This document shows, one piece after another, positions 12,235-64,000 of a stretch of 64,000 nucleotides of DNA. The notes below the pieces were generated by a model. It was given only the letters and a program-made list of their open reading frames with translations. It ran no database searches and was not told where the DNA came from. Source of the DNA: Serratia proteamaculans. GTDB lineage: Bacteria; Pseudomonadota; Gammaproteobacteria; Enterobacterales; Enterobacteriaceae. Positions within the stretch are counted from its first letter, which is position 1, and every line of letters begins with the position of its first letter. A program made the position numbers and the translations under genes. The stretch lies in NCBI RefSeq assembly GCF_013337185.1, contig NZ_SWDE01000001.1:2108001-2172000 (forward strand), in the 5' to 3' direction.

Positions 12235-12329
12235 ACTCTCTCCCGATTGGCTGAACGTTCCATTATATGGGGCCGGAATGCTGATATTTCAATCGATTAA
12301 AGGGTAAAGAAGCGTAAAGCTCAGCGGGT

Positions 12330-12773
12330 TTATTCACCACGACGATGCAGATAGCGCTTCGGCAACTCCAGCCCAGGCAAGGCGGAGCCATCATTGCGAC
12401 CAAACAGCCGATATCGGTTACGCGCCACCGCATTGTAAAATGCATCCGCCAGCCGTGGCGGCAGAAAGCGTGCCAATGCCAGCAGGCGAAATGGCCAGCC
12501 AAGCTGTTGCAGTGCCTGAAAGAAAGCCGCCGAACGCAGCCAATGCTGGCCCTGTGCCAGATAAACAATGGAGTCAAAACGATCGGTAGGTAACGCCAGC
12601 CAGCGCAGAATGGCCTGCCCTTCCTCGGATTGCACCGTGGCCAGCAGGATCTTGCCGTGACGATCGGCGCGGATCAAAAATCTCACCAGCCCGTGACACA
12701 GGTTACATTCGCCATCGAATAACAGCACCCGGTCACCGGGCTGCAGATAAGGGGGGAGTCCTGGCCGATTCAT
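12330..12773 (-). CDS. DCC-family thiol-disulfide oxidoreductase-like protein
   Basis: A 147-residue protein of the DCC (YuxK) family, named from the motif seen here at residues 20-26, DGECNLC, with Cys23 and Cys26 placed as in a redox CxxC. The remainder shows the family pattern (RFLIRADRHGKILLATVQSEEG; FLPPRLADAFYNAVARNRYRLFG). Members are predicted to have a thioredoxin-like fold; the physiological partner is unknown. It is a single gene. Confidence 0.88.
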   Translation of the reverse strand: MNRPGLPPYLQPGDRVLLFDGECNLCHGLVRFLIRADRHGKILLATVQSEEGQAILRWLALPTDRFDSIVYLAQGQHWLRSAAFFQALQQLGWPFRLLALARFLPPRLADAFYNAVARNRYRLFGRNDGSALPGLELPKRYLHRRGE

Positions 12774-12836
12774 CCTGCCTCCTGAGGGGTTGCCACCAGA
12801 CTAACGTGCATTCCCCCTCAGTGCCAGCAGGCTTGT

Positions 12837-13172
12837 TTAAGGCGCAGGCGGGGCCGGTGGGTTATCCGGCAATGCCACAACGGAGATACGCACCTCATAA
12901 TGTTTGGCACTGCTGGCCGGGAGCACCGAGGTTAGCTTATTGATGGTTTCAGTCGGATTATCACTGGCAGAAGTCGCGCAGAATAGCTCGCCCCCGTGGC
13001 AGAAACCCGGTTTGGGCATATGCCCACCAGGGAACGGCGGCAAGCGGAAACCTTGCTCAGCCGGCGGCGGGGCATTTTTATCGGCCGGAGCCGGAGCGGA
13101 AAGCGCACTGACGCTGAACAGCGTCACGCCAGCCAGAAAAGGCAGTGCCAGTACTTTGACGGTATTTTTCAT
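12837..13172 (-). CDS. Secreted proline-rich protein of unknown function
   Basis: A 111-residue exported protein. ATG 13172 is chosen because it is preceded by GAGGT and begins a signal peptide (MKNTVKVLALPFLAGVTLFS...LSAPA); the open frame upstream adds a basic stretch with no merit. The mature part is rich in Pro, has two Cys (PGFCHGGELFCA) and ends PPAPPAP. I do not recognise it. Confidence 0.65.
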   Translation of the reverse strand: MKNTVKVLALPFLAGVTLFSVSALSAPAPADKNAPPPAEQGFRLPPFPGGHMPKPGFCHGGELFCATSASDNPTETINKLTSVLPASSAKHYEVRISVVALPDNPPAPPAP

Positions 13173-13384
13173 GTAATTGACCTCATTTGCCGGGATTGGG
13201 TTTAACCTACCCCGCCCCCGGCCCATGAGAAAGTCGCTTTTCACGACCTTTTCACCCCCGATGATCTTTGCTTACATATCACCGCTAACGTGATGAAAGC
13301 TTAAGGATTATGTAAAAATCATGAAGAAGTTTTTGTTGAGAACACACGGCTGTACAACATGAAAGGCATTCAGCCTAACGATTT

Positions 13385-14554
13385 TTACGACTGCGTTTTT
13401 TTCTTCTGTCTGAAGTTTTCATCATCAATACAATAATGATAGGAATCGATAATCAAGCCTGTCAGCCGCAAGATATTCTCAGGTCGGTCAATAATAATAT
13501 GCCCTCCAGCAGCAAGTTCTAAACCCGCTCGGATAATTTCGGCATGTCTCTCTTCGTTGATTTCCAAAGGGAGTAATACGGTAGGCCTCTGCTTATTGTC
13601 GAAATAGCGTAAAACCCATCGGGTAGTCTTCCCCTGAACAAGAATACTGAAATAACTTTCCGTATCTTTTGCTGTTAAATCTGCACTTTCACCCAGGATC
13701 ATTGCCACATTTTCAAATAAAGCCCGCTCTGCAAAGGTTGTAACTATCTTACTGTTTTCTGGGTCAATAATCGGCGCTAGCGGATCGATTTCGTTGCTTT
13801 TATTAGCGTCACCAAACTCTTCAGACGGCGTTTTATTTTCAGAAGTTACAGACAGCCCGGAAACAACCATTGCACTTACCGCTTTCTCCACGGCCAGGCG
13901 CACCAAAGGGGTGATCGTCTCAAGAAAACGCTGGTTAAGTTGACGTTGGACGTTAGATCGATTCGCCACATATCTGACAAAATCCACGTCCACATCTCTT
14001 AGGCTGGCACTGATGGTCTTGGTAAATGAAGTCAGATAAATGCTCTCTTCAGCCAAGGTTCTCAACGCTTCCGGCTGAAATTGATCGTGTCTAAACCTAT
14101 AAAGCTGTTCAATATCAGAGTCATTTAAATCATTAAAATCTATCTTAAGGAAGGGCGTATCATCCATGATATTTTTATCTTTCAGATCGGTAAAGAACCG
14201 CCATTCCTTGCCGTTGGTGATTGCTGATACGGTGACTTCTGGGGTGGCATTAAAGTAACGTGATAGCTGTGGGCTGTGGTTTGTTAAGTTTTGGCTGAAG
14301 GATTTCGCCTCAATAAACATGACAGGTACGGCATGACAGAAAAGAGAATAATCAACCCGCTCCCCCACTTTAACTCCTGGGAAATCAGCGCCATACTCTG
14401 CTTTTACTTTAGTGGGGTCATAAGGGTGAAAACCAAGAATTTCCAATAAAGGTAAAATTAATGCCTGCTTTGTTGTTTCTTCCGTGTTGCAATGCTGGCC
14501 TACCGCAGCGACATGATGTACATGCGCTTTAAGCTTATCTCTGAATGCATTCAT
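13385..14554 (-). CDS. Orphan HsdR N-terminal-like nuclease protein (PD-(D/E)XK)
   Basis: A 389-residue protein whose first 170 residues match the type I restriction HsdR N-terminal domain: ETTKQALILPLLEILGFHPYDPTKVKAEY, then the nuclease core Asp68 (GERVDYSLF) and Glu82-Ala-Lys84 (FIEAKSF). There is no helicase motor, and no HsdM or HsdS gene nearby, so it is not a full type I system. The rest (about 180-389) is unassigned. ATG 14554 follows AGGGAT; the upstream extension has no support. The gene and its flanks are AT-rich compared with the neighbours, suggesting acquisition. It could be a defence nuclease or a remnant. Confidence 0.75.
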   Translation of the reverse strand: MNAFRDKLKAHVHHVAAVGQHCNTEETTKQALILPLLEILGFHPYDPTKVKAEYGADFPGVKVGERVDYSLFCHAVPVMFIEAKSFSQNLTNHSPQLSRYFNATPEVTVSAITNGKEWRFFTDLKDKNIMDDTPFLKIDFNDLNDSDIEQLYRFRHDQFQPEALRTLAEESIYLTSFTKTISASLRDVDVDFVRYVANRSNVQRQLNQRFLETITPLVRLAVEKAVSAMVVSGLSVTSENKTPSEEFGDANKSNEIDPLAPIIDPENSKIVTTFAERALFENVAMILGESADLTAKDTESYFSILVQGKTTRWVLRYFDNKQRPTVLLPLEINEERHAEIIRAGLELAAGGHIIIDRPENILRLTGLIIDSYHYCIDDENFRQKKKTQS

Positions 14555-15005
14555 CAAACATCCCTCTTGCTGTGTTAGAAATGGGTCATTTCTTAAAGTC
14601 ATACCTACAGAAAGATTTACTAATTTCACCAACGTTACCGTATCGGCAACTGGCTGAGTTTATTTGTTGAATAAAATAATATTAACCTTAAACATTAAAT
14701 ATATAGCAGAACAAGCAAGCTTTGATCAAAGGCATCAATTCAATATTAATACATAGTTCAAAAATAATCGGTCAGCATTCATAACCACAAAAAAACTAAT
14801 AGAAACTCAATCATTTCAATCGCAATCGAATTGCAGTATTTCACGGTTGCATTTCTGGTATTTTCTTGCTGAAATAGAACGGGATAAGCGGTAAGGGGAT
14901 GGATATAACAGGTGGATTTATCTACTAATATTTTTCAGTCAGCTAATATCTCTCAGTCTGGATAAAATAAAATGGAGCACAGCCAGCAGCTGCGCTCCAG
15001 AGACA
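14555..15005. other. AT-rich intergenic region
   Basis: About 450 bp with long A/T tracts (14640-14860 especially). No ORF, RNA gene or clear repeat is visible. It likely contains the promoter of the HsdR-like gene and marks the edge of acquired DNA. Confidence 0.5.
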
Positions 15006-15632
15006 TTACTTGCCGCGGGTCAGCGTGCTGTAACTGGTCATCAGGTTGCGGTAGTCAGGGATATGATTCGCAAACAGCGCCCCCAGCCCTTCCACATCGT
15101 TGCGCCAGTCGCGGTGCAGTTCACAGGCAACGCCGAACCAGGTCATCAGCTGCGCGCCTTCGGCTTCCATACGGCTCCAGGCCGATTGACGGGTCAGCTC
15201 ATTAAAGGTGCCGGAGGCGTCGGTGACCACAAACACCTCAAAACCCTCACTGAGAGCAGACAGCGCCGGAAAGGCTACGCACACTTCGGTAACCACCCCG
15301 GCAATAATCAATTGCTTACGACCGGTGGCTTTCACTGCCTTGACGAAATCATCGTTGTCCCAGGCATTAATCTGACCAGGACGCGGGATAAAGGGTGCAT
15401 CAGGGAATTGCGCTTTTAGCTCCGGCACCAGCGGGCCGTTGGGGCCATCTTCAAAGCTGGTGGTCAGGATGGTCGGCAGGTTGAAATACTTCGCTAAATC
15501 ACCCAATGCCAGTACGTTGTTTTTAAAACGATCGGGATCGATATCTCGTACCAGTGAAAGCAGCCCTGCCTGATGATCCACCAGCAATACGGCGGCCTGA
15601 TCCTTGTCGAGGCGCTTGTAATTTGCAGTCAT
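15006..15632 (-). CDS. ycaC: YcaC-type isochorismatase-family hydrolase
   Basis: A 208-residue cysteine hydrolase, the same length as E. coli YcaC. The catalytic triad pattern is present: Asp in VLLVDHQAG (residue 19), the Lys region KAVKATGRKQLIIAG and the nucleophile Cys in GVVTEVCVAFPAL, which lies after a cis-peptide. YcaC forms ring-shaped octamers; its natural substrate is unsettled. The next upstream gene on the same strand encodes a pirin, and the two probably share a promoter region facing a LysR regulator. Confidence 0.92.
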   Translation of the reverse strand: MTANYKRLDKDQAAVLLVDHQAGLLSLVRDIDPDRFKNNVLALGDLAKYFNLPTILTTSFEDGPNGPLVPELKAQFPDAPFIPRPGQINAWDNDDFVKAVKATGRKQLIIAGVVTEVCVAFPALSALSEGFEVFVVTDASGTFNELTRQSAWSRMEAEGAQLMTWFGVACELHRDWRNDVEGLGALFANHIPDYRNLMTSYSTLTRGK

Positions 15633-15770
15633 GGTTTACTCCTGTGGGGTTTTGATTATTGCGGCTAAAGTTGCCCTTGGCCGATAAGGCCAGAGCGCAG
15701 AGATTGTCTTAAAGTGTAGAACCGGATCCGGAGCTGTTTTTCCGGATCGGTTCTGAGGTGTGGATTGAGC

Positions 15771-16652
15771 TTAGACGGCTTCGTGCTTTGCCACCATGCT
15801 GCCAAACTTGCCACCGTTGAAGTCATGGAAAGCCTGCTGAATTTCCGCGTCGCTGTTCATCACAAACGGGCCGTAGCCGACGATTGGCTCGTCGATAGGC
15901 TCGCCGCTCAGTACCAGCAAGCTGACGTCATTATTGGCTTCGATAGTGATTGAATCCCCCGCACGGTCGAATCTGACCATTTGAGTTTCGCGCACCACTT
16001 CCTCGCCGTTAACATGAATGGCCCCGTGCAGCATCACCAGCGCCAGCGTATGGCCTTCTTTCACCGTCAGCGTGGTGGTGTGACCGGCGTTCAGCTTCAT
16101 ATCCCAGACATTGAGCGGGCTGAAGGTGCGTGCCGGGCCTGCTGCGTCGCCGAAACTACCGGCAATCACCCGAACCTGCCCTGCGCCGTCCGCCAGTGGG
16201 ACCACCGGGATATCCGCATTCAGCAGCGTCTGGTAACCCGGCTCAGCCATTTTGTCCTTGGCCGGAAGGTTTACCCACAACTGCACCATTTCCATGGTGC
16301 CGCCGTTGCGCGAGAAATCCCGTGAATGGAACTCTTCATGCAAAATGCCCGAGGCGGCAGTCATCCACTGCACGTCGCCGGGGCCAATCACCCCGCCGCT
16401 GCCGGTGGAATCGCGATGCTCAACTTCCCCCTGATAGACGATGGTCACCGTTTCAAACCCGCGATGCGGGTGCTGGCCAACGCCACGGGTGCCGGAGGCA
16501 GAGCGGAATTTGGTTGGCGCCGCGTGATCCAACAGCAGGAACGGGCTCATTTCCGCCCCCAGATCGTTATAGGAGAACAGCGAATTCACCAGGAAGCCGT
16601 TACCGACCCAATGGGCTTCAGGGCTGTTGTAAATACCGAGGATCTTTTTCAT
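15771..16652 (-). CDS. Pirin family protein (quercetin dioxygenase-like)
   Basis: A 293-residue bicupin. The metal-binding residues of the N-terminal cupin are visible: GVGQHPHRGFETVTIVYQGEVEHRDS, with the two His of HPH, and SGILHEEFHS, with the third His and the Glu. Pirins are Fe-dependent; the E. coli relative YhhW has quercetinase activity, but the role in vivo is open. It lies upstream of ycaC with 138 bp between and is divergent from a LysR gene, which likely regulates it. Confidence 0.9.
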   Translation of the reverse strand: MKKILGIYNSPEAHWVGNGFLVNSLFSYNDLGAEMSPFLLLDHAAPTKFRSASGTRGVGQHPHRGFETVTIVYQGEVEHRDSTGSGGVIGPGDVQWMTAASGILHEEFHSRDFSRNGGTMEMVQLWVNLPAKDKMAEPGYQTLLNADIPVVPLADGAGQVRVIAGSFGDAAGPARTFSPLNVWDMKLNAGHTTTLTVKEGHTLALVMLHGAIHVNGEEVVRETQMVRFDRAGDSITIEANNDVSLLVLSGEPIDEPIVGYGPFVMNSDAEIQQAFHDFNGGKFGSMVAKHEAV

Positions 16653-49049: not shown

Positions 49050-50396
49050 TCAGGCGGGCACCGCCACCAGTTCACCAACCGCCGTTTCCAACGCTTCTTC
49101 CCGCAACGCACGCAGTAAAAACTCCTGCAAGGCATTGCCGTAGTCGGCAACCCCATCCGTGGGGAACTGCTGCACGTAAATATCAATATCCAGATACAGA
49201 TCGCCGGCATCGGTGCGGCCACGGAAGGTCAGGTTGGCGCCATCGCCAGATCCGCCGGCCAGTACCCGACGCGTGCTGGCGCAGCCGCTGAAACCGGCCG
49301 GATCAAATGGCTGAACGTTGATAAACGGAGAGATAAACAAACGCGAAGCCGGCGTCACGCAGCGATCGGCAGCAATCTGTCGCAAGCGATAACCGGCGTG
49401 ACTGCGCAGCTCGCGCAGCTTCTGCGCCATGTCTGACAGAAAACGCCCCAGCGTCTCCTCCCCGCGCAGTGAGACCAAAAACGGCAGCGTATTGACCGCC
49501 AGCGCCGGGGTATTGGTCGCTTGGCTGCTACGGCGATTCATCACCGGCATCCATAGGGTGCGCGTATCGCCTTTATCATGCGGCAACCGCGGTAAGGTAA
49601 AGCACAGCCAGGCGGCGGACAGCGCCAGCAGCAGATCTGGCCAGCCAATACCGCTGCGCTCCGACAGCTCACGCAGCCGCAGAGAGATCTCTTCCGGCAG
49701 AGCCGTGCTGGTGCTCAGGCATTTCACACCGTACTCCCGGCCGCCTTTGCGCACCGTCGGCAAGGTCTGTGACGGTGGCAGATAGTTCTGCCAAAAATGC
49801 CGATCCTTTGCACAGCGTTCGGAAGCGGCATAGGCCAGTTCATGTTGCTGGAAAGCACTGAAGGTGCCCAAAGCCTGCCCCGCCGCGCCGTTGCCAAGGA
49901 AGTGCGCGTATAGCGTGGCGCAGCGGTGTTCGACCAACGCCATACCGAAGCCATCGATCACAATATGATGGGCGCGCAGATACCAGACGTAGCGCGACGG
50001 CGCCAGTTTGATCAGCCATACGGCGGCCATCGGCTCGCTGCATAAATCTATCGGTCGCTCGACATCCGCCTGCATCAGCCGCATCGCCACCTGATAAGGA
50101 TCGGACTGCGTCTGCAGATCAATACGCTGCAAGGTCGGCACCGATTGAGGGTCGTAACGCTGCAGCGGCGGGCTATCGCCAGTACCGGCGCTAAAGCGCA
50201 GGGCAAACGCCTGCGTTTCCGCCATGGTGAGTGTGATTGCCCGGGCCAGCGCCACCTCGTCTACCGCACCACAGAGTTCGGTGACGTGGGCGACGGTGGA
50301 AAAAGGTTGCCCAGGATGCAAGGTAAATTCGTCCCAGAAGTCTAACTGCGCCGCTGTCAGCGGCAGCCATTCAGTCGCCAAAACAGTTCCCGACAT
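49050..50396 (-). CDS. Stand-alone NRPS condensation domain (VibH-like)
   Basis: A 448-residue condensation enzyme with no A or carrier domain, the size of VibH (about 440). The catalytic motif is intact: HHIVIDG at residues 143-149, and the N-terminus (WLPLTAAQLDFWDEFTLHPGQPFS) is like that of EntF/VibH. In vibriobactin synthesis VibH couples dihydroxybenzoyl-carrier to a free polyamine amine; in serratiochelin the amine is diaminopropane. That role here is inferred. ATG 50396 follows AAAGGTAGG; the longer frame has no support. Divergent from the DppA-like gene, sharing a Fur palindrome. Confidence 0.85.
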   Translation of the reverse strand: MSGTVLATEWLPLTAAQLDFWDEFTLHPGQPFSTVAHVTELCGAVDEVALARAITLTMAETQAFALRFSAGTGDSPPLQRYDPQSVPTLQRIDLQTQSDPYQVAMRLMQADVERPIDLCSEPMAAVWLIKLAPSRYVWYLRAHHIVIDGFGMALVEHRCATLYAHFLGNGAAGQALGTFSAFQQHELAYAASERCAKDRHFWQNYLPPSQTLPTVRKGGREYGVKCLSTSTALPEEISLRLRELSERSGIGWPDLLLALSAAWLCFTLPRLPHDKGDTRTLWMPVMNRRSSQATNTPALAVNTLPFLVSLRGEETLGRFLSDMAQKLRELRSHAGYRLRQIAADRCVTPASRLFISPFINVQPFDPAGFSGCASTRRVLAGGSGDGANLTFRGRTDAGDLYLDIDIYVQQFPTDGVADYGNALQEFLLRALREEALETAVGELVAVPA

Positions 50397-50655
50397 GTTA
50401 CCTACCTTTGAAAAGCCATAAACAAATGTTGAAACAACACAAGCCAAAACCCCGCCGTCGCAAATCACGTTTGATAGCGGCCAAAACGGGGTGAATGCTG
50501 GACACGGCTGAGCGACCCGTTGGCAAACTGCCCGGCGTGTTCCTGCTTATTGTGGTTGGCGTGCCTGACCTCCCTGGTTCAGGTAAAAACGAGACGGCGC
50601 GGGCCAGTAAAAACCACGGCCACAGCGCACTGAAGATGTTTCGATTCGGTTACAA

Positions 50656-53505: not shown

Positions 53506-54045
53506 ATGAAAATAATGACTGGCGTTATTTTACCTACGGTTGCCGCCATCGCAATGGCGGGCATGGCGCACGCAGCAGACAGCAAACAACCGGTGACCGG
53601 CAAAGAGACGGTTACCCTGGAACACGTGCATGCCGTGCAAGAGAATGGCAGCCCCGCCCCCAAGCACGACGCGGCCTGTATGAAAGAGCTTTCTATGCCG
53701 ACGTCCAAGTATGTCGGGATGAAAGTCACCAGCGAATACACCGTTAACCCCAGCTCGATGATGATGTCCGCGAAATCGATGCTGCCTTCCCCGATGGCCA
53801 CGCAACCGCTAGAGTTGACGGTTGATTTATCCGCTCTCGGTATGGAAGGGGTTTATGCCTTTGGCGCCTTCAAACCCAATGTGTTGCCGCAGGACTATGT
53901 TTATTTCACCATCGGCAAGGATTTTAAAAACCCCGTCAGCACCTTTATGATTATTAATAAAGGTAAAGAATATAACTGCGTTATTTCCAGCTCAAACAAG
54001 GCGATGAGTAAAGAAGAACGCAAACACCTTATGGTTAAGAAATAA
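53506..54045 (+). CDS. Secreted protein of unknown function
   Basis: A 179-residue protein with a signal peptide ending AHAAD (residue 25). The mature part contains two widely spaced Cys (AACMKEL and EYNCVISSS) that may form a disulfide, and a Met/Ser-rich middle (SSMMMSAKSMLPSPMATQ). No family was recognised. AGGAGC precedes the ATG. It ends with a terminator and has no obvious partner. Confidence 0.65.
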   Translation: MKIMTGVILPTVAAIAMAGMAHAADSKQPVTGKETVTLEHVHAVQENGSPAPKHDAACMKELSMPTSKYVGMKVTSEYTVNPSSMMMSAKSMLPSPMATQPLELTVDLSALGMEGVYAFGAFKPNVLPQDYVYFTIGKDFKNPVSTFMIINKGKEYNCVISSSNKAMSKEERKHLMVKK

Positions 54046-54069
54046 CGGGGATACTGATGGGATAATACT

Positions 54070-54107
54070 GGGGACTCGGGTGGTTTTACTGCCCTGGCCC
54101 CTTTTTT
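54070..54107 (+). terminator. Rho-independent terminator
   Basis: GGGG and CCCC pair, with an inner GGG/CCC stem and an internal loop, followed by TTTTTT. It begins 25 bases past the secreted-protein stop. Confidence 0.6.
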
Positions 54108-54209
54108 AATTAAGACGATAACCTCCGCCGGACTAACTGATTGCTTAACAATCCCGTTTGGGGATAATGGTAGATATTCGATTTTGGGATATCACTCGTG
54201 GGAAGCGCC

Positions 54210-54470
54210 ATGACTTCAGTTTATTCAATCGAGTATCAATTAGTTATAAAAATACTTAGGGATGCTCGTATAGAAAAAAGCATCACTCAGGCCAAGCTGG
54301 CTGAAGCCTTGGGTCGCCCTCAGTCGTTTATCGCCAAGGTCGAGAACGGCGAGCGCAAACTGGATGTGGTGGAGTTTGCTTTGATCGCTCGTTTGCTTGG
54401 AGTTGATACCGGGGCGGTTATGAGGCGGATTGGCGGGCGGGTTGGTGGGCGGGTTGGGCCATTGTGTTAG
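54210..54470 (+). CDS. Small XRE-family helix-turn-helix protein
   Basis: An 86-residue DNA-binding protein made almost only of a Cro/CI helix-turn-helix (ILRDARIEKSITQAKLAEALGRPQSFIAKVENGERKLDVVEFALIARLLG). GGGAAG precedes ATG 54210; GTG at 54198 is an alternative. The last residues are GGRVGGRVGPLC and come from a G-rich repeat. It stands at the edge of an accessory region and may regulate genes of that island. Confidence 0.8.
   Translation: MTSVYSIEYQLVIKILRDARIEKSITQAKLAEALGRPQSFIAKVENGERKLDVVEFALIARLLGVDTGAVMRRIGGRVGGRVGPLC
54435..54458 (+). repeat. G-quadruplex motif at the 3' end of the HTH gene
   Basis: Five GGG runs separated by loops of 1, 5, 1 and 2 bases (54435-54458) within two near-identical GGGCGGGTTGG units. 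This satisfies the usual G3N1-7 pattern. It lies in the coding end and could form a DNA or RNA structure. Confidence 0.6.
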
Positions 54471-54768
54471 CAAGGGTAAAGCCTACAGCCCGACTGAAGT
54501 CATCAAATGCTTGTCTAATTCCCCGGAGAGAAAGCGGACGTTAGTCTCAAATGACATATCCCCCGTGTGCAGCAAGATGCTCTAAGAGTAGAGATCATTT
54601 TGGCGAGACCGACACCTGATCCACAGTTTTGGTAAAAGAGTTTGAGGACCAAGGGAGTGGAAACGCACGGGAATTTCGGAGTGAAGGTTGCTAGAATGCT
54701 TACGGGTATTTAAAACTGCTTGTTTTGCCCCACGTTTCTACACTCTAACCGTCGGAGGAAACTGCGCT
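54471..54768. other. Intergenic region, no gene recognised
   Basis: About 300 bp between the HTH gene and the membrane protein gene. It has no good open frame. Some phrases look like remnants of mobile DNA but no inverted repeats or transposase piece could be confirmed. Confidence 0.4.
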
Positions 54769-55098
54769 ATGGCAATCACTGAAGAAAAATTGCTGGCCGC
54801 AGGTTTTACGCTAGCAGATGTGCAAAAGCTGAAGAACAACCTCCATAATTACGGCGGTTCGTTTGAACAGGTCATACAGGGTCTGTCGAACAGGTTTCGA
54901 GCAAATATCTGGATCACTGTGGCAGTGGTTGTCGTTTGCTTGACGGTTCTGTTAGGCGGTTCATTGGGTGACGCAGCTTCTGCCGTCGTCGCGGCTTTAA
55001 TCGCCCTGGCCATTGTTTGGTTCACTGTTCCAATCCCATTAGCTTACAGGGCGTGGTCCAGCAGAAAACAATCTTTCAATTCTCAGGATGTTCCGTAG
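54769..55098 (+). CDS. Small two-helix membrane protein of unknown function
   Basis: A 109-residue protein. Start ATG 54769 has the ribosome-binding site CGGAGGAAA. The N-terminal 45 residues are soluble and helical (MAITEEKLLAAGFTLADVQKLKNNLHNYGGSFEQVIQGLSNRF), followed by two membrane helices (ANIWITVAVVVVCLTVLLGGS and ASAVVAALIALAIVWFTVPIP) and a polar tail. It converges on the DUF4225 gene with a 23-bp overlap. An immunity or accessory role is possible. Confidence 0.6.
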   Translation: MAITEEKLLAAGFTLADVQKLKNNLHNYGGSFEQVIQGLSNRFRANIWITVAVVVVCLTVLLGGSLGDAASAVVAALIALAIVWFTVPIPLAYRAWSSRKQSFNSQDVP

Positions 55099-55879
55099 TT
55101 AACAAATCAAAGACTATTCTAGCTTTCAGTCCATAACCCACTATTTTCATGGTTAACGCGGGTTTACTCATTGAGCTAACCTTTCGGTAGAAATCAGATG
55201 GCAAATGATGGAATAGTCTCCATGTGCCAGGGCGTTTTATAAGCCCAATGATGCTGTATACATTGGCTGTCAGGGCAACCACTTTGAAAACCCCAAGCCC
55301 GTCTGCTCTTGAAAACCCCATAAATTCGGCCGCTGACATTGCGCCATTTGCCAGCACGCCTTCCGAATCCTGTTTGTCTCTAAAATAGTGATCGAACTCT
55401 TTTGATATCGTGTTAAAGCCATCAGCGAAAAGTATCGCCCCCGCAAGCACGCCTATCGGCGTCGATGTTCCGACCAACACCGTCCCTGTAAAAATTTCCA
55501 CACCCGCCAGAACCACATTTATCGAGCTGATCACATAACCAACAATGCTGTTGTTCTCACGCACAAATTCAATTTTGGCGTAGAGTTGCGCGGCCTTGGT
55601 GCGGATCAACCGGTCTTGTTCCAACAAATTATTGGTTTCAGTGCGTAATGTCTGCGTAGCCTGAGTATAAGCTTCGAGGGTTTTCGACTTTCTTACCCGC
55701 GTAAGTTGCAGCGTCACCAGTTCGCGTATTTCCTCCACGAACTTGATGCGTGTCAACCCGTCTTTAAGGTGCGAGGACGCGACAGTATTAGCGATATTGA
55801 CCAACTTCCTGGCTTCGCGGTCGAGGGCCATTTCCGACCATGCGATAGTTTTCTGCCCTGGCGGGACGGCGAGATACAT
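55076..55879 (-). CDS. DUF4225 domain protein
   Basis: A 267-residue protein. The N-terminal half is helical and charged (LDREARKLVNIANTVASSHLK, TLRTETNNLLEQDRLIRTKAAQLYAKIEF), followed by a hydrophobic region (IVGYVISSINVVLAGVEIFTGTVLVGTSTPIGVLAGAILFADGFNTISKEFD) typical of DUF4225. The family has no established function and is often in variable regions of plant- and insect-associated bacteria. It is convergent with a small membrane protein gene (23-bp overlap), in the accessory island. A role in contact-dependent conflict is a guess. Confidence 0.65.
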   Translation of the reverse strand: MYLAVPPGQKTIAWSEMALDREARKLVNIANTVASSHLKDGLTRIKFVEEIRELVTLQLTRVRKSKTLEAYTQATQTLRTETNNLLEQDRLIRTKAAQLYAKIEFVRENNSIVGYVISSINVVLAGVEIFTGTVLVGTSTPIGVLAGAILFADGFNTISKEFDHYFRDKQDSEGVLANGAMSAAEFMGFSRADGLGVFKVVALTANVYSIIGLIKRPGTWRLFHHLPSDFYRKVSSMSKPALTMKIVGYGLKARIVFDLLTTEHPEN

Positions 55880-56343
55880 GAGCTTTCCTTGTCGATGGGG
55901 GATTTTTGAAGTGTCACTGACAACGGCTCTCGCTTCAAGGGCATTTTAACTTTCGTCTTCCTGAAAGGGAGCTACGTCACCCACTTTGGGTGTTCACTGA
56001 AGGAGGTATTTCTATGGTTATTGCTGTGCGGTAAAGGGAGTTCGGGCTTTTCGGCTGGGGTCTGTGCCAGCGTCAGTATTTCGCTTGCAGTGGTTATGCT
56101 GTCGAGTGGATACCTGACCATTCTTTCCGTGGCACGTCTACCACAGGTTTATCAGACATGTTTGGACTGAACCACTCACAGGACTTCGGCAGCCATGAGC
56201 GAGGAGCTGGAATTCCAATCGGAATAATGGCTGCGTAATTATAAAAATATAATTCGAACTGTGGACCTTATCTTCAGAAAGCTCACAATTTAATGCCTCC
56301 CAGTGGTATGGTTTTGTTTTTGCCGCTAAAAGAGGAAAAGCTA
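55880..56343. other. Accessory intergenic region holding a broken ORF
   Basis: Between the DUF4225 gene and the small monooxygenase-like gene. Apart from the interrupted frame at 56014-56238 described below, no gene or repeat is recognised. Confidence 0.4.
56014..56238 (+). pseudogene. Putative small gene interrupted by an in-frame TAA
   Basis: ATG 56014 follows a near-perfect Shine-Dalgarno (AAGGAGG, spacing 7). The first codons read MVIAVR then TAA at codon 7, after which the same frame stays open for 67 codons to TAA at 56236-56238 (REFGLFGWGLCQRQYFACS onward to GIPIGIMAA). Either a nonsense mutation broke a small gene or the first six codons are a leader. The second segment does not match any family I know. 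Confidence 0.35.
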
Positions 56344-56655
56344 ATGATTGTAAGAACCTGGCACGGCTGTGTTCCGCTTAAACATGCAGAAGGATTTGCG
56401 AAACACCTTGAAAAGACCGGTGTGGAGCACTCAAGGAACATAGCGGGAAACAGAGGTGTATTCGTGCGCAGGGAAAGCCAGGGTGGCTGGGAGCATTTCT
56501 TTCTGGCTACCTACTGGCAGGACTTGCATGCGGTAAAGGCATTTGCCGGAGAAAGCTATCACGTGGCGGTAACTTACCCAGACGACGAAGAATTCGAGTT
56601 GCTTTCTGATCCCTACGTATTCCAACATGTAGTGGAAGCCCTTTCACCACTTTAG
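56344..56655 (+). CDS. Small antibiotic-biosynthesis-monooxygenase-like protein
   Basis: A 103-residue protein with a dimeric alpha/beta barrel look: MIVRTWHGCVPLKHAEGFAKHLEKTG, then RNIAGNRGVFVRRESQGGWEHFFLATYWQDLHAVKAFAGESYHVAVTYPDDEEF. The last part (DPYVFQHVVEAL) closes the barrel. Start ATG 56344 is preceded by AGAGGAAAAG. The family includes heme-degrading and quinone-forming enzymes, but many members are uncharacterised. Confidence 0.75.
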   Translation: MIVRTWHGCVPLKHAEGFAKHLEKTGVEHSRNIAGNRGVFVRRESQGGWEHFFLATYWQDLHAVKAFAGESYHVAVTYPDDEEFELLSDPYVFQHVVEALSPL

Positions 56656-56884
56656 CTTCCTTCCCGGGGTCGCCTGACGGTTGCTCCGATTTTACTTAGC
56701 ATCTAAGCGCAAAGGTCTGTTCTTGACATGGTGCGGACAGAGAGCAGGTGCATCATGTCCGCAGTGAGCGATGAGCGGATGTTCGCCTAATGACACCTGC
56801 AGGGTTGCAATGTAGTTTATTGAGCCAACCAGCTGGTGGTTATGACTATTTCGAATAGCAGCTCCTCTTTTTGCTTACACATTC
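56656..56884. other. Short gap with an inverted repeat
   Basis: Contains perfect 8-bp arms TGCGGACA (56732-56739) and TGTCCGCA (56756-56763). No gene is recognised here. Confidence 0.4.
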
Positions 56885-58738
56885 TCACCGCAATTTAATA
56901 ATGTCAGGCACCATTGCGAGGTTGCTGAGGTCGCATTCCAGCTCAACTTTGTTTTTAGGTATCCAGACCCCTACTGTAAATCCTCCCCACGCTTGCAAAC
57001 GAAGCTGTGCCTTTTGCCCCCTGAATGCCACTTTGATTAGCGAGGGCGAAAAGGTGGGGTGCAGCAAAAACCAGGCAAAGTCACCGATACCTACATTCGT
57101 CGCGCGTGGTGCTTGTACGGTGAGGATGACGGTTTTCCAGTCACGACTATTCGTATCTTCGAACTTGACTTTCAGTATAAAGCCTTCACTCTCCATCTGA
57201 CCGCCAAACCGCTCTTTATTGGGATCCTCTGGGAACAGAACGGGACGCGAAAAGGCGGGGAGTTCAGGTGAGTCTTCTGGCAGTAGTTGTCCTGAAAATG
57301 CAAATGCCGCTTCCAAAAGGTTTTCCCTAGCCGGTGGGGGTGAGGCGTTCACGCTTTTTTGGCCTGCCCGTAACAGCGTAATTTTTCCGGCGCTGATTTC
57401 TCCCTGAAAGATCACCAAGGTGTTGTGCGCAGAAAGCCGACCGGAAGGGGTTCGGTTTGGTGTAAGAACTTTTCGCGTTTTAAGGATATTTAAGTCGCGC
57501 GCAAGCCAGCTAAATGTCGGGCCAAACCCCCGCTGAAGCGGCAACTCCCGATGCCAGCGGGTATTCAACCGCTCGAACCTGTGTACAATCGCAGGCGTTA
57601 TGGCATCTACATTCGTTTTGATGTAATTGGCAATACCGAAAGATAATTCAGCAAACAGCTGATTGGTATAGCGATAGTAAGGCGAACCAGCTGTTTGGGC
57701 CTTTGCCAGACTCTCAATTGCCTGCGAGACCGCATCGTGTTGCTGTTGCGAGCTTTTTCCCTGAGCCGCAGAAAGATGTTTGCTGGCGATGATGACGTAG
57801 GTATCAAACGCCCAGGCAGCATGTTCTGTGAGCGACCTTAACCAGACGTCATCCTGTACTGAAAACAGCTCAGAAAAGCGGATCGACAGAAGACAAATAA
57901 GCATGGCAGCCCAGGGGTCTTTCGATAATGCGCTGAAATGTTGTTTGTGAATGATGTCATCTCTGACGGCTTGTGCCTCCGCTGAGGTTCCTGCATCCAG
58001 TGCGCGTACTAGCGCGCGTAATCTGGGGTCGACAGGGGTAATACTGAGTTCAAGATCGTCAGGGGCAAAGGGGGGCACCGTCACCATGATCTGTGTGCCA
58101 CCTAGGTACAGTGGCAACAAGCATCGCTCGATTCTCACTTTTTCAATAGTTGACGTTAATCGGACGCGATGTCCCAGCCGGTGATCGCGTTCAGAGTCTT
58201 CAGGTATCTGAAGTTCAAGTCGCCCGGAAAACATCTCTATCTTTGATTCGCCGCAATAGGTATTGAACGTTTCGCGTCCACGTTGCTCTTCAGACAGGCC
58301 GAGTGAAATACGTCTTTTGACCTCAACGGTCGGAGTTTTAATCATCTCTGACGCAGGCGTTGTACCGAAAGAACTCCATTCCGCATACGATGGGAGGGGC
58401 GCTGCATCAGAGGTAAACCACGGTGGAACCGTTGTCTCTGTTTGCTGCTTATCTGAGTCAAAGAAGCTGATTTTACTTCCCGAAGACAATAGGGAAGAAA
58501 ATGATGGCAGCGTAACCGTATTAGTTTTTCCCTCCTCGACATTAAAAAAAACAGATTGTGGGGCCAGACCCGCAGGTGTTACTTCGGCCCAGTAAATGCC
58601 AGAGCTCACATCATCTGTTGAGAAGGTGCGATTATCCGGCGTGGCAATCCAGTCGGCGATAGATTGCTCACTGTTCTGAATGCGAATTGTGCCAACGGAA
58701 AGATCGCTCGGCGCCTCAAAATTCAGTGTTGTTTTCAT
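56885..58738 (-). CDS. Large protein of unknown function coupled to a caspase-like protease
   Basis: A 617-residue protein from ATG 58738 (MKTTLNFEAPSDLSVGTIRIQNSE). That ATG overlaps the stop of the caspase gene as ATGA, so it is translated with it; the frame open further upstream is shadow. The N-terminal 90 residues look like a beta-sandwich (GIYWAEVTPAGLAPQSVFFNVEEGKTNTVTLPSF), residues 190-420 include many helices (AAMLICLLSIRFSELF, SQAIESLAKAQTA), and the C-terminal third is beta-rich again (WKTVILTVQAPRATNVGIGDFAWFLL; LRLQAWGGFTVGVWI). There is no signal peptide or membrane helix. It may be the protease substrate or an effector. Not recognised. Confidence 0.7.
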   Translation of the reverse strand: MKTTLNFEAPSDLSVGTIRIQNSEQSIADWIATPDNRTFSTDDVSSGIYWAEVTPAGLAPQSVFFNVEEGKTNTVTLPSFSSLLSSGSKISFFDSDKQQTETTVPPWFTSDAAPLPSYAEWSSFGTTPASEMIKTPTVEVKRRISLGLSEEQRGRETFNTYCGESKIEMFSGRLELQIPEDSERDHRLGHRVRLTSTIEKVRIERCLLPLYLGGTQIMVTVPPFAPDDLELSITPVDPRLRALVRALDAGTSAEAQAVRDDIIHKQHFSALSKDPWAAMLICLLSIRFSELFSVQDDVWLRSLTEHAAWAFDTYVIIASKHLSAAQGKSSQQQHDAVSQAIESLAKAQTAGSPYYRYTNQLFAELSFGIANYIKTNVDAITPAIVHRFERLNTRWHRELPLQRGFGPTFSWLARDLNILKTRKVLTPNRTPSGRLSAHNTLVIFQGEISAGKITLLRAGQKSVNASPPPARENLLEAAFAFSGQLLPEDSPELPAFSRPVLFPEDPNKERFGGQMESEGFILKVKFEDTNSRDWKTVILTVQAPRATNVGIGDFAWFLLHPTFSPSLIKVAFRGQKAQLRLQAWGGFTVGVWIPKNKVELECDLSNLAMVPDIIKLR

Positions 58739-59910
58739 GGGACTGATACCCATTGTTCGAAGAGAGGTTCTTTCGGCTGAAAGAGCTGTGAGAAATGATC
58801 GGTGCCATCTATAGCTATAGCATAAAGCGCGTTGATCCCAGGCGTTACGGTGGTTATCCACGGCCCTGTACCACGCGTCGCGTTGTTTTTTAACCAAGGT
58901 GGAGCTGGTACATTTCGCTCACTAATAGCGAAATCATAATATGGCATGCGCTCTGGCGGGTCAGTGATTACCACAAGGGGGAGTTCAAAGTTTTCCGGAT
59001 AGACTAAGGGGATTAAGTCAGCTGGTGTAACGGCAGAATATGGGTCGAAAGGTTCCTTATCGCCCCAATGTTCAAAGTAAATACGCCGTAGTGCTTTGAG
59101 ATCGCTTTGCAAGTCGCGACTGTTGACCCCCCAACGTCCGCGTGAATATCGAGCTGATGAACCGCTGAGTCCTTTCAGGCACGTCTGTGTAAACCGTCCA
59201 AATTTTAGATGACTTCCTGCTAAATCTGGCCCTTCGTATGCCAACTGATTCTCCGAGGCGGCACAGAGCAAAGAAACCTGATTACGGCTTACGGAAAACA
59301 TAGACTCGGTCTCGTCGGGATAAAACGGACAAGGTACTGCCTGCTTAATCAGTTCGAATTGAGGAATAAATTCTCCACACGCGTCGGAAAACAAAAATGC
59401 AGCGGAAATGGTCTGGTGTTTTCGTAATCTGTAAGAGAGCTCTCCGAGATTAATGTGCGACCACAGATTGATAGGATTACTGTTTAAATCTTCCAGAAAG
59501 ACCACCGGTTGCTGCAGGTGCGATGCTCCATGGCCGCAGCAATAGAAAAATGCCACATCACCCGGTTGCACAGACAAACGCTGATACCAGGCGAAGCCGC
59601 GGGTGCCGACATTTGACACCGTAGCCGAATCAACACGCACCGCAGGCCCCCATGGGTAGCGATTCTCTGTTGCAGGTGGATCCGAGATTAATACGTCGAG
59701 CGTTGCCAGTGGTGCAGCCAGACGATCCTTATTTTCGATCAACCAATTGCAGACAAGTTTTGCGCTATCTGCGGCGCTCGGTAATGCAGGAACCGCGCGT
59801 AGTTTGGCGGAAACACCTTGTCCGGCCCGGGCGAAGGGGTAATTACCAACGCCAATAACGAAAGCGTGTGTTTTCGGGCCGATGACTTCACGGTCAAAAA
59901 GTAGCGGCAT
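58735..59910 (-). CDS. Caspase-family (C14) cysteine protease
   Basis: A 391-residue protein with the caspase-hemoglobinase fold signature. After the first strand (THAFVIGVGNYPFA) comes the catalytic His127 in FFYCCGHGAS, and the nucleophile Cys178 in AAFLFSDACGEF, each following its hydrophobic strand. No extra C-terminal effector domain is recognised in the last 150 residues. It is the middle gene of a three-gene operon: 10 bp after the hydrolase gene, whose stop lies in its GAGGA ribosome-binding site, and overlapping the next gene by 4 bp. Bacterial caspase homologues are often part of defence or cell-death systems. Confidence 0.85.
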   Translation of the reverse strand: MPLLFDREVIGPKTHAFVIGVGNYPFARAGQGVSAKLRAVPALPSAADSAKLVCNWLIENKDRLAAPLATLDVLISDPPATENRYPWGPAVRVDSATVSNVGTRGFAWYQRLSVQPGDVAFFYCCGHGASHLQQPVVFLEDLNSNPINLWSHINLGELSYRLRKHQTISAAFLFSDACGEFIPQFELIKQAVPCPFYPDETESMFSVSRNQVSLLCAASENQLAYEGPDLAGSHLKFGRFTQTCLKGLSGSSARYSRGRWGVNSRDLQSDLKALRRIYFEHWGDKEPFDPYSAVTPADLIPLVYPENFELPLVVITDPPERMPYYDFAISERNVPAPPWLKNNATRGTGPWITTVTPGINALYAIAIDGTDHFSQLFQPKEPLFEQWVSVP

Positions 59911-59920
59911 TGTCCGGTCC

Positions 59921-61045
59921 TCACAAAATGTCCGACGCTTTTAACCGCGTTCGAGTACGTGCATAAAATTGCGGACGCTGGAAATATTTCGAATGCGTGT
60001 CGGTAATGCCGGCCACAGAGTTGAACACAACATCTTCTGCATCCTTATAAATCATGCCAGCACGGAAGGCAAACGGGTCTATCGGATCAAAAACGTTGAA
60101 CCAATTCTTAACGCAATTAGGTCGACAGCGAGATGAACCAGCCTGGGGATTAGAAGACAGGACACCCAGTGCAGCGAAAAGACCGGGTTGCGAGCCCACC
60201 GTGAAGAGGGCGTCAATTTCAATATCGTCGGGTAATCCGGCTGCTGCAGGATCGGTCAACATATCGGTGAGGATTACGCCTCCCATACTGTGCCCAACAA
60301 CTACCAACGGTCCTTTACCCGCTTTTTTTGCATTATAAGCCTGAATGAGGTCACTACGGATGACATCTTGAATGGCGTTTCGTGTTTGGCCCTCTTTGAG
60401 ATAGACAAAAACATCGCCCATAAACAGACCTACAGCCGGGCTGAGATTTCCGCGTACGGCACCAAAACCCAGGGTTGATGCCGCGTGGTAGATACGCTCT
60501 GTTACCGTTGAAATTGCATTGCTGATGACGCTACCAATACTGAAAGCACGGTCTCCTTGCCCCTTGAGCCGATCGCTAATACTTTGCGTAGAGGCATCTG
60601 CAGAAAATAGGTTATCGCTTTGCTTCGATTCAATAAGAGCAAAGGCATTGCGAAATGCCTGAAACTCTTCTTCTGACAGCTGGCGGTGGTCACTCTCCGC
60701 GGTATCTGCAATTTGTGAACAAATCGCATCAAGTGCGGCAACGGAGTCTTGTTGCCCTACTGCGACGATAGATACATCGAGGTTGTCGCCGCTAGTGAGC
60801 CTCATTCCACCGTCGAGACCGGGTACTGAGGAGATATTCAATGAGAATGTGGTGATATCCGCATTGGTCTGAAAGACCCCCTGGGGAATCGGGTTAACAA
60901 ATTTCCCCCACATTGGCGAATAGAAGTCGACGGGCTGACCGTCAAAAACCAATTCCTGATAGAACTTATTACGGTTGGCAACGGCGCGTGAGTAATCAGC
61001 GTCTACGCGCGTTGCAACACCATGAACAAAGACCAGTTGTGGCAT
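59921..61045 (-). CDS. Serine alpha/beta hydrolase (lipase-like), first gene of caspase operon
   Basis: A 374-residue hydrolase. The chain begins at the first strand (MPQLVFVHGVATR), with the oxyanion HG. A lid-like insertion of about 200 residues follows, and the nucleophile elbow is VVVGHSMGGVIL (Ser253). The Asp is probably 320 or 323 (NVFDPIDPF) and the base His351 (TDTHSKYF). There is no signal peptide. AGGAATAAAC precedes the start. This is the first gene of a compact three-gene operon with a caspase-like protease. It may act on lipids or be activated by cleavage. Confidence 0.85.
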   Translation of the reverse strand: MPQLVFVHGVATRVDADYSRAVANRNKFYQELVFDGQPVDFYSPMWGKFVNPIPQGVFQTNADITTFSLNISSVPGLDGGMRLTSGDNLDVSIVAVGQQDSVAALDAICSQIADTAESDHRQLSEEEFQAFRNAFALIESKQSDNLFSADASTQSISDRLKGQGDRAFSIGSVISNAISTVTERIYHAASTLGFGAVRGNLSPAVGLFMGDVFVYLKEGQTRNAIQDVIRSDLIQAYNAKKAGKGPLVVVGHSMGGVILTDMLTDPAAAGLPDDIEIDALFTVGSQPGLFAALGVLSSNPQAGSSRCRPNCVKNWFNVFDPIDPFAFRAGMIYKDAEDVVFNSVAGITDTHSKYFQRPQFYARTRTRLKASDIL

Positions 61046-61862
61046 GTTTATTCCTATATTACATAATAAAAGGAATCCTAATTGTCCTTGTGATGTCTGG
61101 CCTTATCCTAAGTACCAGTTACCGTGCTCAACTTCACAAGCATAGTAAATCGCAACGCGTAAGCAATATGGATAGTGTGTTTTTTATACAAAATGGCGAC
61201 TTGAAAATTTTCGCTCTGAGCATGCAGCGATTCCTGACTTGCACTCAGTTGATTAACACCGATTGTTGTTAACTTTGGCTCGGGGCGGACAGGGAACGGT
61301 GATGCTGAAGCCTGAGCGGGAAAGGCTGGTGGCATAATGTAATCGAAGGCGACAAGTACGTTGACACTTACCGCACTCGTTTTTTGAGAAATAAAGCTTT
61401 GCAACAGTGCTGATTTAAGTTCTTCACTGGCTATATTGCTCCTTTCTTTTGCAGAAGGTCGATGACAACAGACGCCGCTAGTTCCCAGGCAATCTGTAAT
61501 GCAAAATCCAATATTGATTCGTCAAGTCGGATCTGCCTCCCTCTTTAAAAGGCACAGAGCCATCATCCAGTTTCTTTGGTTAAGCGCAAGATGAAGGGAA
61601 TGCCCGTCTCACGACAAGAATGAAGCCTGTAGTGGCCCTCATGTAGATGGCATTTCGTCCCCTTTGAATAGGAACGTGCCAAAGATGCGAAACTTCCGCT
61701 TCTGGAACAAAGCCGACTGTCAGATGAGATTTCGCTGAAGCCAACACCACCACCAGCCAAGATATATCAGCATTAGCATCAACCCTTTTGAGCTCCCCAA
61801 AATAAAAAGGGCACAGTCCAAATGAACTGCGCCCCTGCATTTTTGAAACACCGAACTAAAGC
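61046..61862. other. Region between the caspase operon and proA
   Basis: About 800 bp. It must carry the promoter of the leftward operon and the proBA terminator. Several open frames of 60-98 codons on the minus strand (61108-61404, 61563-61840) lack a clear ribosome-binding site or known domain. They may be decayed gene pieces at the island edge. No tRNA gene was found here. Confidence 0.45.
61803..61834 (-). terminator. Rho-independent terminator of proBA
   Basis: An 11-bp stem with two G-T pairs (GGGCGCAGTTC opposite GGACTGTGCCC) and an ATTT loop; on the minus strand TTTTTAT follows. It begins 28 bases after the proA stop. Confidence 0.85.
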
Positions 61863-63116
61863 TTAACTCCGAACCAAATCATCACCGTAGCCGATCCACT
61901 TGTAGGTGGTCAGAGCATCCAGGCCCATTGGGCCGCGGGCGTGCAGTTTCTGGGTGCTGACGGCCACTTCTGCGCCCAGGCCGAACTGGCCGCCGTCGGT
62001 GAAGCGGGTGCTGGCGTTGACGTACACCGCACTGGAGTCCACCGCACGCACAAAGTGCTCGGCGCTGCTCAGTGAGCGGGTGAGGATCGCGTCGGAGTGG
62101 CTGGTGCCGTGGGTGCGAATATGGTCGATGGCCTGATCGATGTCATCCACCAGCGCCACGTTCAGGTCCAACGACAGCCATTCGTCGTCGTAATCTTCCG
62201 CCGCTACCGCTACCACCGTTGCCGGGCCGTCTTGCAATAGCAGCATGGCGTTCTCTGCTGCGTGCAGGGTGACGCCGACCGCCGCCATTCGGGTGCTCAA
62301 GGCAGGCAGAAATTCTGCGGCAATGTTGCGGTTCACCAGCAGCGTCTCCAGCGAGTTACAGGCGCTTGGGCGTTGAATTTTGGCGTTCTCGATTACCGTC
62401 AGTGCTTTGTCGAAATCAACGCTGTCATCCACGTAGGTATGGCAAACGCCGATACCGCCAGTGATCACCGGGATGGTCGACTGTTCGCGGCACAGTTTGT
62501 GCAGGCCAGCACCACCGCGTGGGATCAGCATGTCGACGTAGCGATCCAGGCGCAGCAGTTCATTCACCAGTGCACGGTCCGGGCTTTCAATCGCCTGTAC
62601 CGCCGCGGCTGGCAGGCCGCACTGTTCCAGCGCCTGCTGGATCACTTTAACCGTCGCCTGGTTGGTGTGGTGGGTTTCTTTACCGCCGCGCAGGATCACC
62701 GCGTTGCCGGTTTTCAGGCACAGGCTGGCGACGTCGATGGTGACGTTCGGCCGCGCTTCATAAATCACGCCAATCACCCCGAGCGGTACCCGGCGGCGTT
62801 CCAGCTTCAACCCGCTGTCCAGCAGGCTGCCGTCCAATACGTGGCCGACCGGGTCGTTCAGGCGACACACCTGGCGCACATCGTTGGCGATCGCCGCCAG
62901 ACGTGCCGGGGTCAGCAACAGGCGATCGAGCAGCGCTTCGGTCATCCCGCTGGCGCGTGCCTGTTCCATGTCCTGTTCATTAGCCTGTAAAATCACTTCG
63001 CTTTCGGCTTCCAGTCTGTCGGCAATCACCGACAGCACCTGGTTTTTCTTCGCCGTGCTCAGCACCGCCAGTTGCCAGGAGGCCTGCTTGGCGGCCTTCC
63101 CCATCTGCTCCAGCAT
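61863..63116 (-). CDS. proA: Gamma-glutamyl phosphate reductase
   Basis: A 417-residue enzyme, same length as in E. coli, for the second step of proline synthesis: NADPH-dependent reduction of glutamyl-5-phosphate to the semialdehyde. The catalytic Cys is in [18 protein letters not shown], and the sequence ends like E. coli ([19 protein letters not shown]). ATG 63116 is chosen since AAGGAG overlaps the proB stop at the right distance; the GTG at 63122 would be a longer start. It follows proB by 9 bases in one operon. Confidence 0.96.
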
Positions 63117-63125
63117 GCTCACTCC

Positions 63126-64000
63126 TTAGCTGACAATCATATCGTCGCGGTGAACTGCCACCGGGCCGTATTCATAACCGAGAATTTCACTGATCTCCTG
63201 CGAGTGGTGACCGGCAATCATGCGCATCGCGTCGCTGTTATAACGGCTGACGCCGTGCGCCAGATCGCGCCCCGTCAGGTTGCGGATGCGGATCACTTCT
63301 CCACGGGAGAAATCGCCTTTAACTTCGCGGATGCCCTTCGGCAGCAGTGAACTGCCGCGCGCCATAATGGCGTCGACCGCACCGTCGTCGACGGTGATCT
63401 CGCCGGCCGGGGGTGCGCCGAAGATCCAGCGTTTGCGGTTTTCCAGCGGGGTTTCCAGCGCGTGGAAACGGGTACCCACCGGTTTGCCTTCAATTACGTC
63501 AGCCACCACGCCCGGCTTGCTGCCGGCGGCGATGATCACGTCGATACCGGCACGGCAGGCCACGTCGGCGGCTTGCAGCTTGGTGCCCATGCCGCCGGTG
63601 CCCAGGCCGGAAACGCTGTCGCCGGCGATGGCGCGCAGTGCATCGTCGATGCCGTGCACTTCACGGATCAGCTCTGCCTGCGGGTTGTTACGCGGGTCGG
63701 CGGTGTACAGCCCCTGCTGATCGGTCAGCAACAACAGTTTATCGGCCCCGGCCAGGATCGCCGCCAATGCCGACAGGTTGTCGTTGTCGCCCACCTTGAT
63801 TTCTGCGGTCGCTACCGCGTCGTTCTCATTGATCACCGGCACGATACGGTTGTCCAGCAACGCCGTCATGGTGTCACGCGCATTGAGGAAGCGTTCGCGG
63901 TCTTCCAGATCGGCACGCGTCAGCAACATCTGCCCGACGTGGATGCCATAAATGGAGAACAGTTGCTCCCACAGTTGGATCAACCGGCTCTGCCCGACCG
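63126..64000 (-). CDS. proB: Glutamate 5-kinase, partial (N-terminus outside window)
   Basis: The first enzyme of proline synthesis, which phosphorylates glutamate. The window shows the protein from [12 protein letters not shown] to the C-terminus VHRDDMIVS, about the last 290 residues of some 367. The kinase segment ([69 protein letters not shown]) and the C-terminal PUA domain ([24 protein letters not shown]) are present. Proline feedback is normal for the family. It is upstream of proA in the operon. Confidence 0.96.

Follow-up and report, generated by a model that had tools for sequence, protein, structure and literature searches.

The operon and its setting

In the 64,000-nucleotide stretch of Serratia proteamaculans DNA analysed here (positions 2,108,001 to 2,172,000 of contig NZ_SWDE01000001.1, assembly GCF_013337185.1; hereafter the window), the minus strand carries a compact operon of three genes arranged head to tail. 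These encode an alpha/beta hydrolase (gene 1, 374 aa, 59921..61045), a caspase-like cysteine protease (gene 2, 391 aa, 58735..59910) and a 617-aa protein with a C-terminal pYEATS domain at residues 537-605 (gene 3, 56885..58738). The operon is real, conserved and mobile. All three open reading frames (ORFs) are intact at the coordinates given in a first-pass annotation made from the letters of the window alone, and the tight packing described there was recovered: genes 1 and 2 are separated by a 10-bp gap (59911..59920), the stop codon of gene 1 falling within a Shine-Dalgarno-like TGAGGA and overlapping the AGGA-type ribosome-binding site ahead of gene 2, while genes 2 and 3 share an ATGA stop/start overlap (58735..58738) that is kept in all nine other loci examined that carry the same version of the cassette (version 1; a second version is described below). 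The gene-3 ORF could also open at a TTG at 58897, giving 670 aa; because Met1 corresponds to the ATG at 58738 in at least 90% of the rows when gene 3 is aligned with 39 relatives, a length of 617 aa was retained.

As first noted, the region is unlike its neighbours: the cassette has a G+C content of 0.502 and the variable interval 54443-61795 one of 0.491, compared with 0.556 in the remainder of the window. Promoter-like matches were close to the mean of shuffled sequences (6 vs 4.7, standard deviation 2.1), a tRNA search of the 64-kb window gave nothing, and the cassette is not flanked by the single direct repeat detected in 54000-62100.

Domain features of the three products

The hydrolase has its presumed nucleophile, Ser253, in a GHSMG motif. 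Consistent with the role given to this residue at first pass, Ser253 is present, together with Asp320, Asp323 and His351, in all 46 of the hydrolases aligned (window protein counted), and the catalytic triad is likely to consist of Ser253, His351 and either Asp320 or Asp323. The match to the DDHD family PF02862 lies below the cut-off (25.6 vs 28.3 bits), and some close relatives carry this family in the database. In a second look with VIA-align, the predicted structure model of the hydrolase found its best fold matches in DDHD and lysosomal phospholipase A2; the DDHD domains of Nir2 and Nir1 and lysosomal phospholipase A2 are among its closest known counterparts. Both DDHD proteins and the lysosomal enzyme have lipids as substrates. 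The modelled fold suggests a DDHD/phospholipase-like enzyme, in line with the lipase-like character first suggested. The same model predicts that a Gly-rich loop at residues 63-89 is disordered.

The protease was correctly recognised at first pass as caspase-like, with a His127-Cys178 dyad. His127, Gly128, Asp176 and Cys178 occur in 46 of 46 aligned caspases (window protein counted), leaving the His-Gly and Asp-x-Cys motifs intact. PF00656 matches gene 2 below threshold (18.8 bits vs a cut-off of 21.4, E-value 0.0014) and the best PDB entries are weak hits to metacaspases (E-value 0.2); the PADLOC caspase profile matches at an E-value of 5.9e-6, some gene-2 relatives are annotated with PF00656 in the database, and alignment with the caspases of version 2 reaches an HHalign probability of 95%.

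The third protein had been regarded as belonging to no known family. This proved wrong: residues 537-605 match pYEATS (PF20305) with 53.7 bits for a cut-off of 26.9 (E-value 2e-14), which rules out an orphan without family. Among the 89 relatives listed, proteins named as pYEATS domain-containing occur in Citrobacter, Yersinia, Burkholderia, Sinorhizobium and others, and many also carry the newer Pfam family PF27295. The N-terminal and middle parts of gene 3 are conserved as well, and variable-length stretches lie at about residues 100-140 and 455-490. No match to known structural proteins was obtained in the searches made.

With a 40-sequence gene-3 profile, the best solved structures were YEATS domains of human YEATS2, at a weak E-value of 0.04. 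YEATS2 is a histone reader whose likeness to gene 3 is confined to the core. In the YEATS2 study, eight residues are listed as contacts to the acetyl-lysine peptide, including His259, Ser261, Tyr262, Trp282, Gly283 and Phe285, of which Tyr262 and Trp282 form the aromatic sandwich (PMC5651844). These six align with His560, Thr562, Phe563, Trp584, Gly585 and Phe587 of gene 3, whereas Glu284 is unmatched (Gly586 in gene 3) and Tyr313 falls outside the alignment. The pocket places are nearly invariant in the 40-row alignment (His 40, Thr/Ser 39, Phe/Tyr 40, Trp/Tyr 39, Gly 40, Phe 40), and the pattern fits 86 of the 89 listed relatives, 80 of the 86 being aromatic at the place of Trp584. By alignment, the pYEATS tail keeps the acyl-lysine pocket residues of human YEATS2.

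Conservation and horizontal spread

Scanning genome contigs with the gene-3 alignment revealed 14 loci (L003-L016); a scan with the single protein gave none. The version-1 loci come from a peptide-pattern scan of one species-level collection, which is not exhaustive: a protein search places further carriers outside the scanned loci, in Klebsiella, Citrobacter, Yersinia, Burkholderia and others. In 9 of the 14 loci gene 3 was matched over all or nearly all of its length, and in all nine the hydrolase and caspase genes lie directly upstream in the same order. These loci belong to Pseudomonas, Variovorax, Sinorhizobium, Rhodopila, a member of the Rhizobiales, Bordetella, Porphyrobacter, Brevundimonas and Caulobacter. 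The trio is also found on a Rhizobium plasmid typed as conjugative, ca. 12 kb from repC and near transposases. Closer copies occur in enterobacteria, with a Klebsiella variicola caspase that is 96% identical and Citrobacter braakii products of genes 2 and 3 at 86%. Moreover, 41 of 64 gene-3 clusters on contigs of at least 6 kb pair with an identically sized contig of a gene-1 or gene-2 cluster, a lower bound as 120 of the 243 gene-1 matches were taken in, and two shifted controls gave 0. Protein distances over 11 loci are strongly correlated as well (Mantel r 0.93-0.96, with 0 of 2000 permutations as high). These data uphold the prediction of a conserved three-gene unit.

The cassette is sporadic. 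Among 392 genomes of the family and 398 of the phylum, it was found in the genome of the window (G000) alone, and pYEATS domains of any kind in 2 of the 398 phylum genomes; the 12 carrier genomes tested have one pYEATS match apiece. Outside the cassette, the flanks of L003-L016 have few pairwise matches in common, and one locus (L012) is cut off by its contig end. Cassette DNA had no match in complete E. coli genomes. The trio is a self-contained, horizontally spread mobile cassette. In one locus (L005, Sinorhizobium saheli; 11963-15878), an IetS gene (13347-15878, E-value 0) is the second gene downstream of the cassette; the ORF between them is probably IetA, for which a match was seen.

A second, strongly diverged version with the same gene order was identified at five loci, namely L014, L015, L016 and two S. 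meliloti plasmids (L042, L043). Its hydrolase is DUF900-like where a family was found and has an HSAGS nucleophile motif; compared with that of version 1 it gives an HHalign probability of 6%, with no detectable kinship beyond the nucleophile region. The caspases exceed the PF00656 cut-off in L014 and L015, and that of L016 matches no family at an E-value of 0.01. The third protein shares detectably with gene 3 just its last ca. 123 residues, and all five of these tails show the same pocket pattern, one with Tyr replacing Trp. Based on sequence comparison, the hydrolase and all but the tail of the third protein appear to have either diverged beyond recognition or been swapped; because the two versions share their gene order all the same, the hydrolase-caspase-pYEATS design is considered conserved. 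On S. meliloti pSymA (L042:1-6254), DUF2235 and lysozyme genes lie upstream of the version-2 cassette and IS21 genes behind it.

The site adjacent to proBA

The variable interval (54443..61795), whose content differs in sister genomes, is bordered by a conserved flank on one side and by proBA on the other, and the cassette lies in it directly after proBA. Pfam matches and gene order identify proA/proB-like genes at 61863-63983 (aldehyde dehydrogenase family; amino acid kinase with PUA), and a strong terminator-like minus-strand hairpin of 13 pairs followed by a T tract, downstream of proA at 61807..61836, probably ends proBA transcription. Synteny with the first six sister genomes extends to 54107-54470 and picks up again at 61791-61862, with different genes in between, and in several more distant sisters the spot is recognisable at the proA side alone.

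Known or predicted anti-phage genes were mapped to this spot in 6 of 26 sister genomes. In G022 it is occupied by a retron type I-A set, with a reverse transcriptase at a PADLOC E-value of 1.4e-126, an ATPase whose best E-values are 5e-131 to PtuA and 9.8e-84 to the retron I-A ATPase, and an HNH protein with 1.5e-63 to PtuB and 1.6e-33 to HNH_I-A. G026 has an AAA_15 gene whose best PADLOC matches are PDC-M55A and NsnB, and elsewhere the genes downstream of proA include PDC-S29 (G011), PDC-S11 (G013), OloA (G005) and a CBASS cyclase (G018). For the first six sisters, PADLOC covered 8 ORFs (from L021, L022, L024 and L025) and Pfam 10 (from L021, L022, L023 and L025); for the 20 further sisters, PADLOC covered 68 of 114 ORFs, those nearer proA in 18 genomes, with none from L048 and L049. 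These 68 ORFs matched 54 PADLOC families at 1e-10 or better, and the 25 families shown of the 54 include CBASS effectors, cyclases, E2, OloA, OloB and a type IV restriction enzyme; 130 control ORFs from other genera matched 8 families, at best with an E-value of 3.2e-37. Three of the families were mapped to genomes, plus PDC-S29 via its first member, and since part of the PADLOC matches are unmapped the true number of defence-bearing genomes may exceed 6 of 26. Retron I-A, CBASS and Olokun all serve in defence against phages. The proA spot often carries defence genes in this genus, and with 6 of 26 sister genomes doing so, the cassette occupies a site where the genus exchanges defence genes, among others.

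Other features of the area include a DUF4225 protein in the same variable interval (PF13988, E-value 6.2e-32; 55076-55879, minus strand), for which PADLOC gave no match. A small plus-strand ORF (54198-54470) resembles a helix-turn-helix regulator by eye, and the DNA at ca. 54151-54439 is kept near proA in several sister genomes. Further away, 49050-50468 (minus strand) encodes a condensation-domain protein (PF00668, E-value 3.6e-37), perhaps part of a non-ribosomal peptide pathway. An OloA-like match occurs elsewhere in the genome of the window (G000:C1:1925475-1927946, E-value 1.5e-68).

A putative abortive-infection system

Because the trio travels between distant bacteria and sits where sister genomes keep anti-virus genes, it is a probable, little-studied cell-suicide defence. 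We put at about even chances a more specific scheme in which the pYEATS protein acts as sensor, the caspase then cuts the hydrolase, and the freed lipase kills. The pYEATS protein and the caspase would be made in coupled fashion and probably form a sensor-protease complex. The former would read some infection cue, possibly via its conserved acyl-lysine-type pocket; the caspase would then be switched on and cleave the hydrolase, most likely in the predicted disordered loop 63-89, and the released phospholipase-like enzyme would harm membranes and halt the cell before phage release. For effector-type domains, a proposal has been made that alpha/beta hydrolases break down membrane lipids (PMC8195603). 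Location and spread support the defence role; we infer that a complex forms, that the hydrolase is cleaved, which lipid it attacks, what triggers the system and that the cell dies.

Several observations weigh against this reading. At the proA spot, 20 of the 26 sister genomes have no defence gene mapped, and some carry ordinary genes, such as those for a glyoxalase, a thymidylate-kinase-like protein, an FAD oxidoreductase and acetyltransferases in G001 and G008. Around 12 other loci, 28 PADLOC families were matched by 113 nearby ORFs, vs 8 by 130 control ORFs from 13 stretches in 8 carrier genomes of genera other than that of the window, a frequency that is not clearly higher, E-values not being comparable across PADLOC families and one protein being able to yield several (IetS seven, a Mko-like helicase four). 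ORFs counted as neighbours were at least 100 aa long, within 5.5 kb, clear of the cassette and not cut by the end of the locus; the control families include mad2, mad3 and mad8, with a best E-value of 3.2e-37. In the Mantel correlation of protein distances, co-inheritance of the trio and shared species history are not separated. One locus (L013, 9623-10372), the sole one of its kind, has a pYEATS tail for which neither a caspase nor a hydrolase partner was detected. Searches of phage records and viral contigs with gene 3 gave no match, and a phage-borne origin was set aside on these grounds. Within the proteins, loop 63-89 is less conserved than the remaining hydrolase (0.46 vs 0.64), and the second pocket aromatic is replaced by a non-aromatic residue in 6 of the 86 pattern-matched relatives of gene 3. 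The defence role suggested at first pass fits the proA spot, where 6 of 26 sisters carry such genes, but draws no clear support from flanks elsewhere.

These flanks bear on another possibility, that the operon is a non-defence module, serving in stress, development or interbacterial competition, which came to lie in a variable spot by chance. The DUF4225 gene in the same interval, the non-defence genes at the spot in several sister genomes, the lysozyme and DUF2235 genes near the S. meliloti version-2 cassette and the lack of clear defence enrichment in other genera would all suit it. Its sporadic spread, the defence genes at the spot in 6 of 26 sister genomes, the IetS gene second downstream of the L005 cassette and the absence of secretion-system domains among the 10 window neighbours scanned argue the other way, and we regard such a module as quite unlikely.

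Even for a defence system, labour may be divided differently. If gene 3 were the main substrate of the caspase, acting as an inhibitor or scaffold that is cut on activation, the active hydrolase would be held in a complex until then. That caspase and gene 3 are coupled by the ATGA overlap in nine of nine loci would agree with this, and the variable stretches at about residues 100-140 and 455-490 could be linkers; the hydrolase too has a predicted disordered loop, however, and no cleavage site is known. We regard this arrangement as unlikely. Alternatively, the caspase could be the killer through broad proteolysis, with the hydrolase upstream, e.g., as a deacylase making or erasing the acyl mark read by pYEATS. 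An acyl hydrolase and an acyl reader are a natural pair, the pYEATS tail keeps the acyl-lysine pocket and the version-2 hydrolase is apparently unrelated to that of version 1. Yet the hydrolase model best fits lipid-acting DDHD/phospholipase folds, and in the Canu system the caspase activates a pro-enzyme (PMC12799240); we judge this division of labour improbable.

Release of a lipase by the caspase, the scheme that we prefer, may be taken one step further. The operon could be an acylation-watching suicide device, in which the YEATS pocket reads an infection-time change in protein acylation and the caspase then releases the phospholipase. This extension seems doubtful; if true, it would mean that a YEATS reader acts in bacterial immunity and that a lipase is activated by a caspase, and the literature searches made turned up no test of these two ideas. 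A compact operon joining caspase, lipase and YEATS in two diverged versions is a testable case of killing by a caspase-released lipase, and it offers a handle on what prokaryotic YEATS domains sense.

Comparison with known systems

In animals, caspases, lipases and YEATS readers figure in cell death and chromatin signalling. For prokaryotes, Burroughs and Aravind (J Bacteriol 2020) reportedly proposed that YEATS domains act as sensors in predicted immune systems, proteolytic activation being one of the themes. The hydrolase-caspase-pYEATS combination did not turn up in the literature searches made, though these authors may already have predicted the trio.

The gated-lipase model draws on the analogy with Canu (CanABC of K. 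aerogenes). In Canu, a complex of CanA and CanB turns CanC into an active nuclease, the caspase activating a gated pro-enzyme that bears disordered Gly-containing insertions (PMC12799240). Both systems have a three-gene operon, a caspase, a second protein (CanB, which binds the caspase in Canu) and a separate effector enzyme with disordered Gly-bearing insertions, here the predicted loop 63-89. In contrast to the metallo-beta-lactamase (MBL)-fold nuclease of Canu, the effector here would be an alpha/beta hydrolase, and YEATS is not mentioned in the main text of the Canu paper (PMC12799240). Membership in Canu was dropped, as a Pfam scan of the three genes and 10 window neighbours gave no MBL-fold nuclease domain.

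The predicted VMAP (MoxR-vWA ternary) conflict systems likewise pair a caspase with an alpha/beta hydrolase, a known theme there, and the caspase domain always comes with a neighbouring alpha/beta-hydrolase gene (PMC7159879). Those systems comprise MoxR, vWA and VMAP parts, whereas the third gene here encodes the pYEATS protein; Pfam showed no MoxR, vWA or VMAP domain in the trio or in the same 10 neighbours, and membership in this group was dropped as well. The components of the operon are of known kinds, and their combination with pYEATS is a variant.

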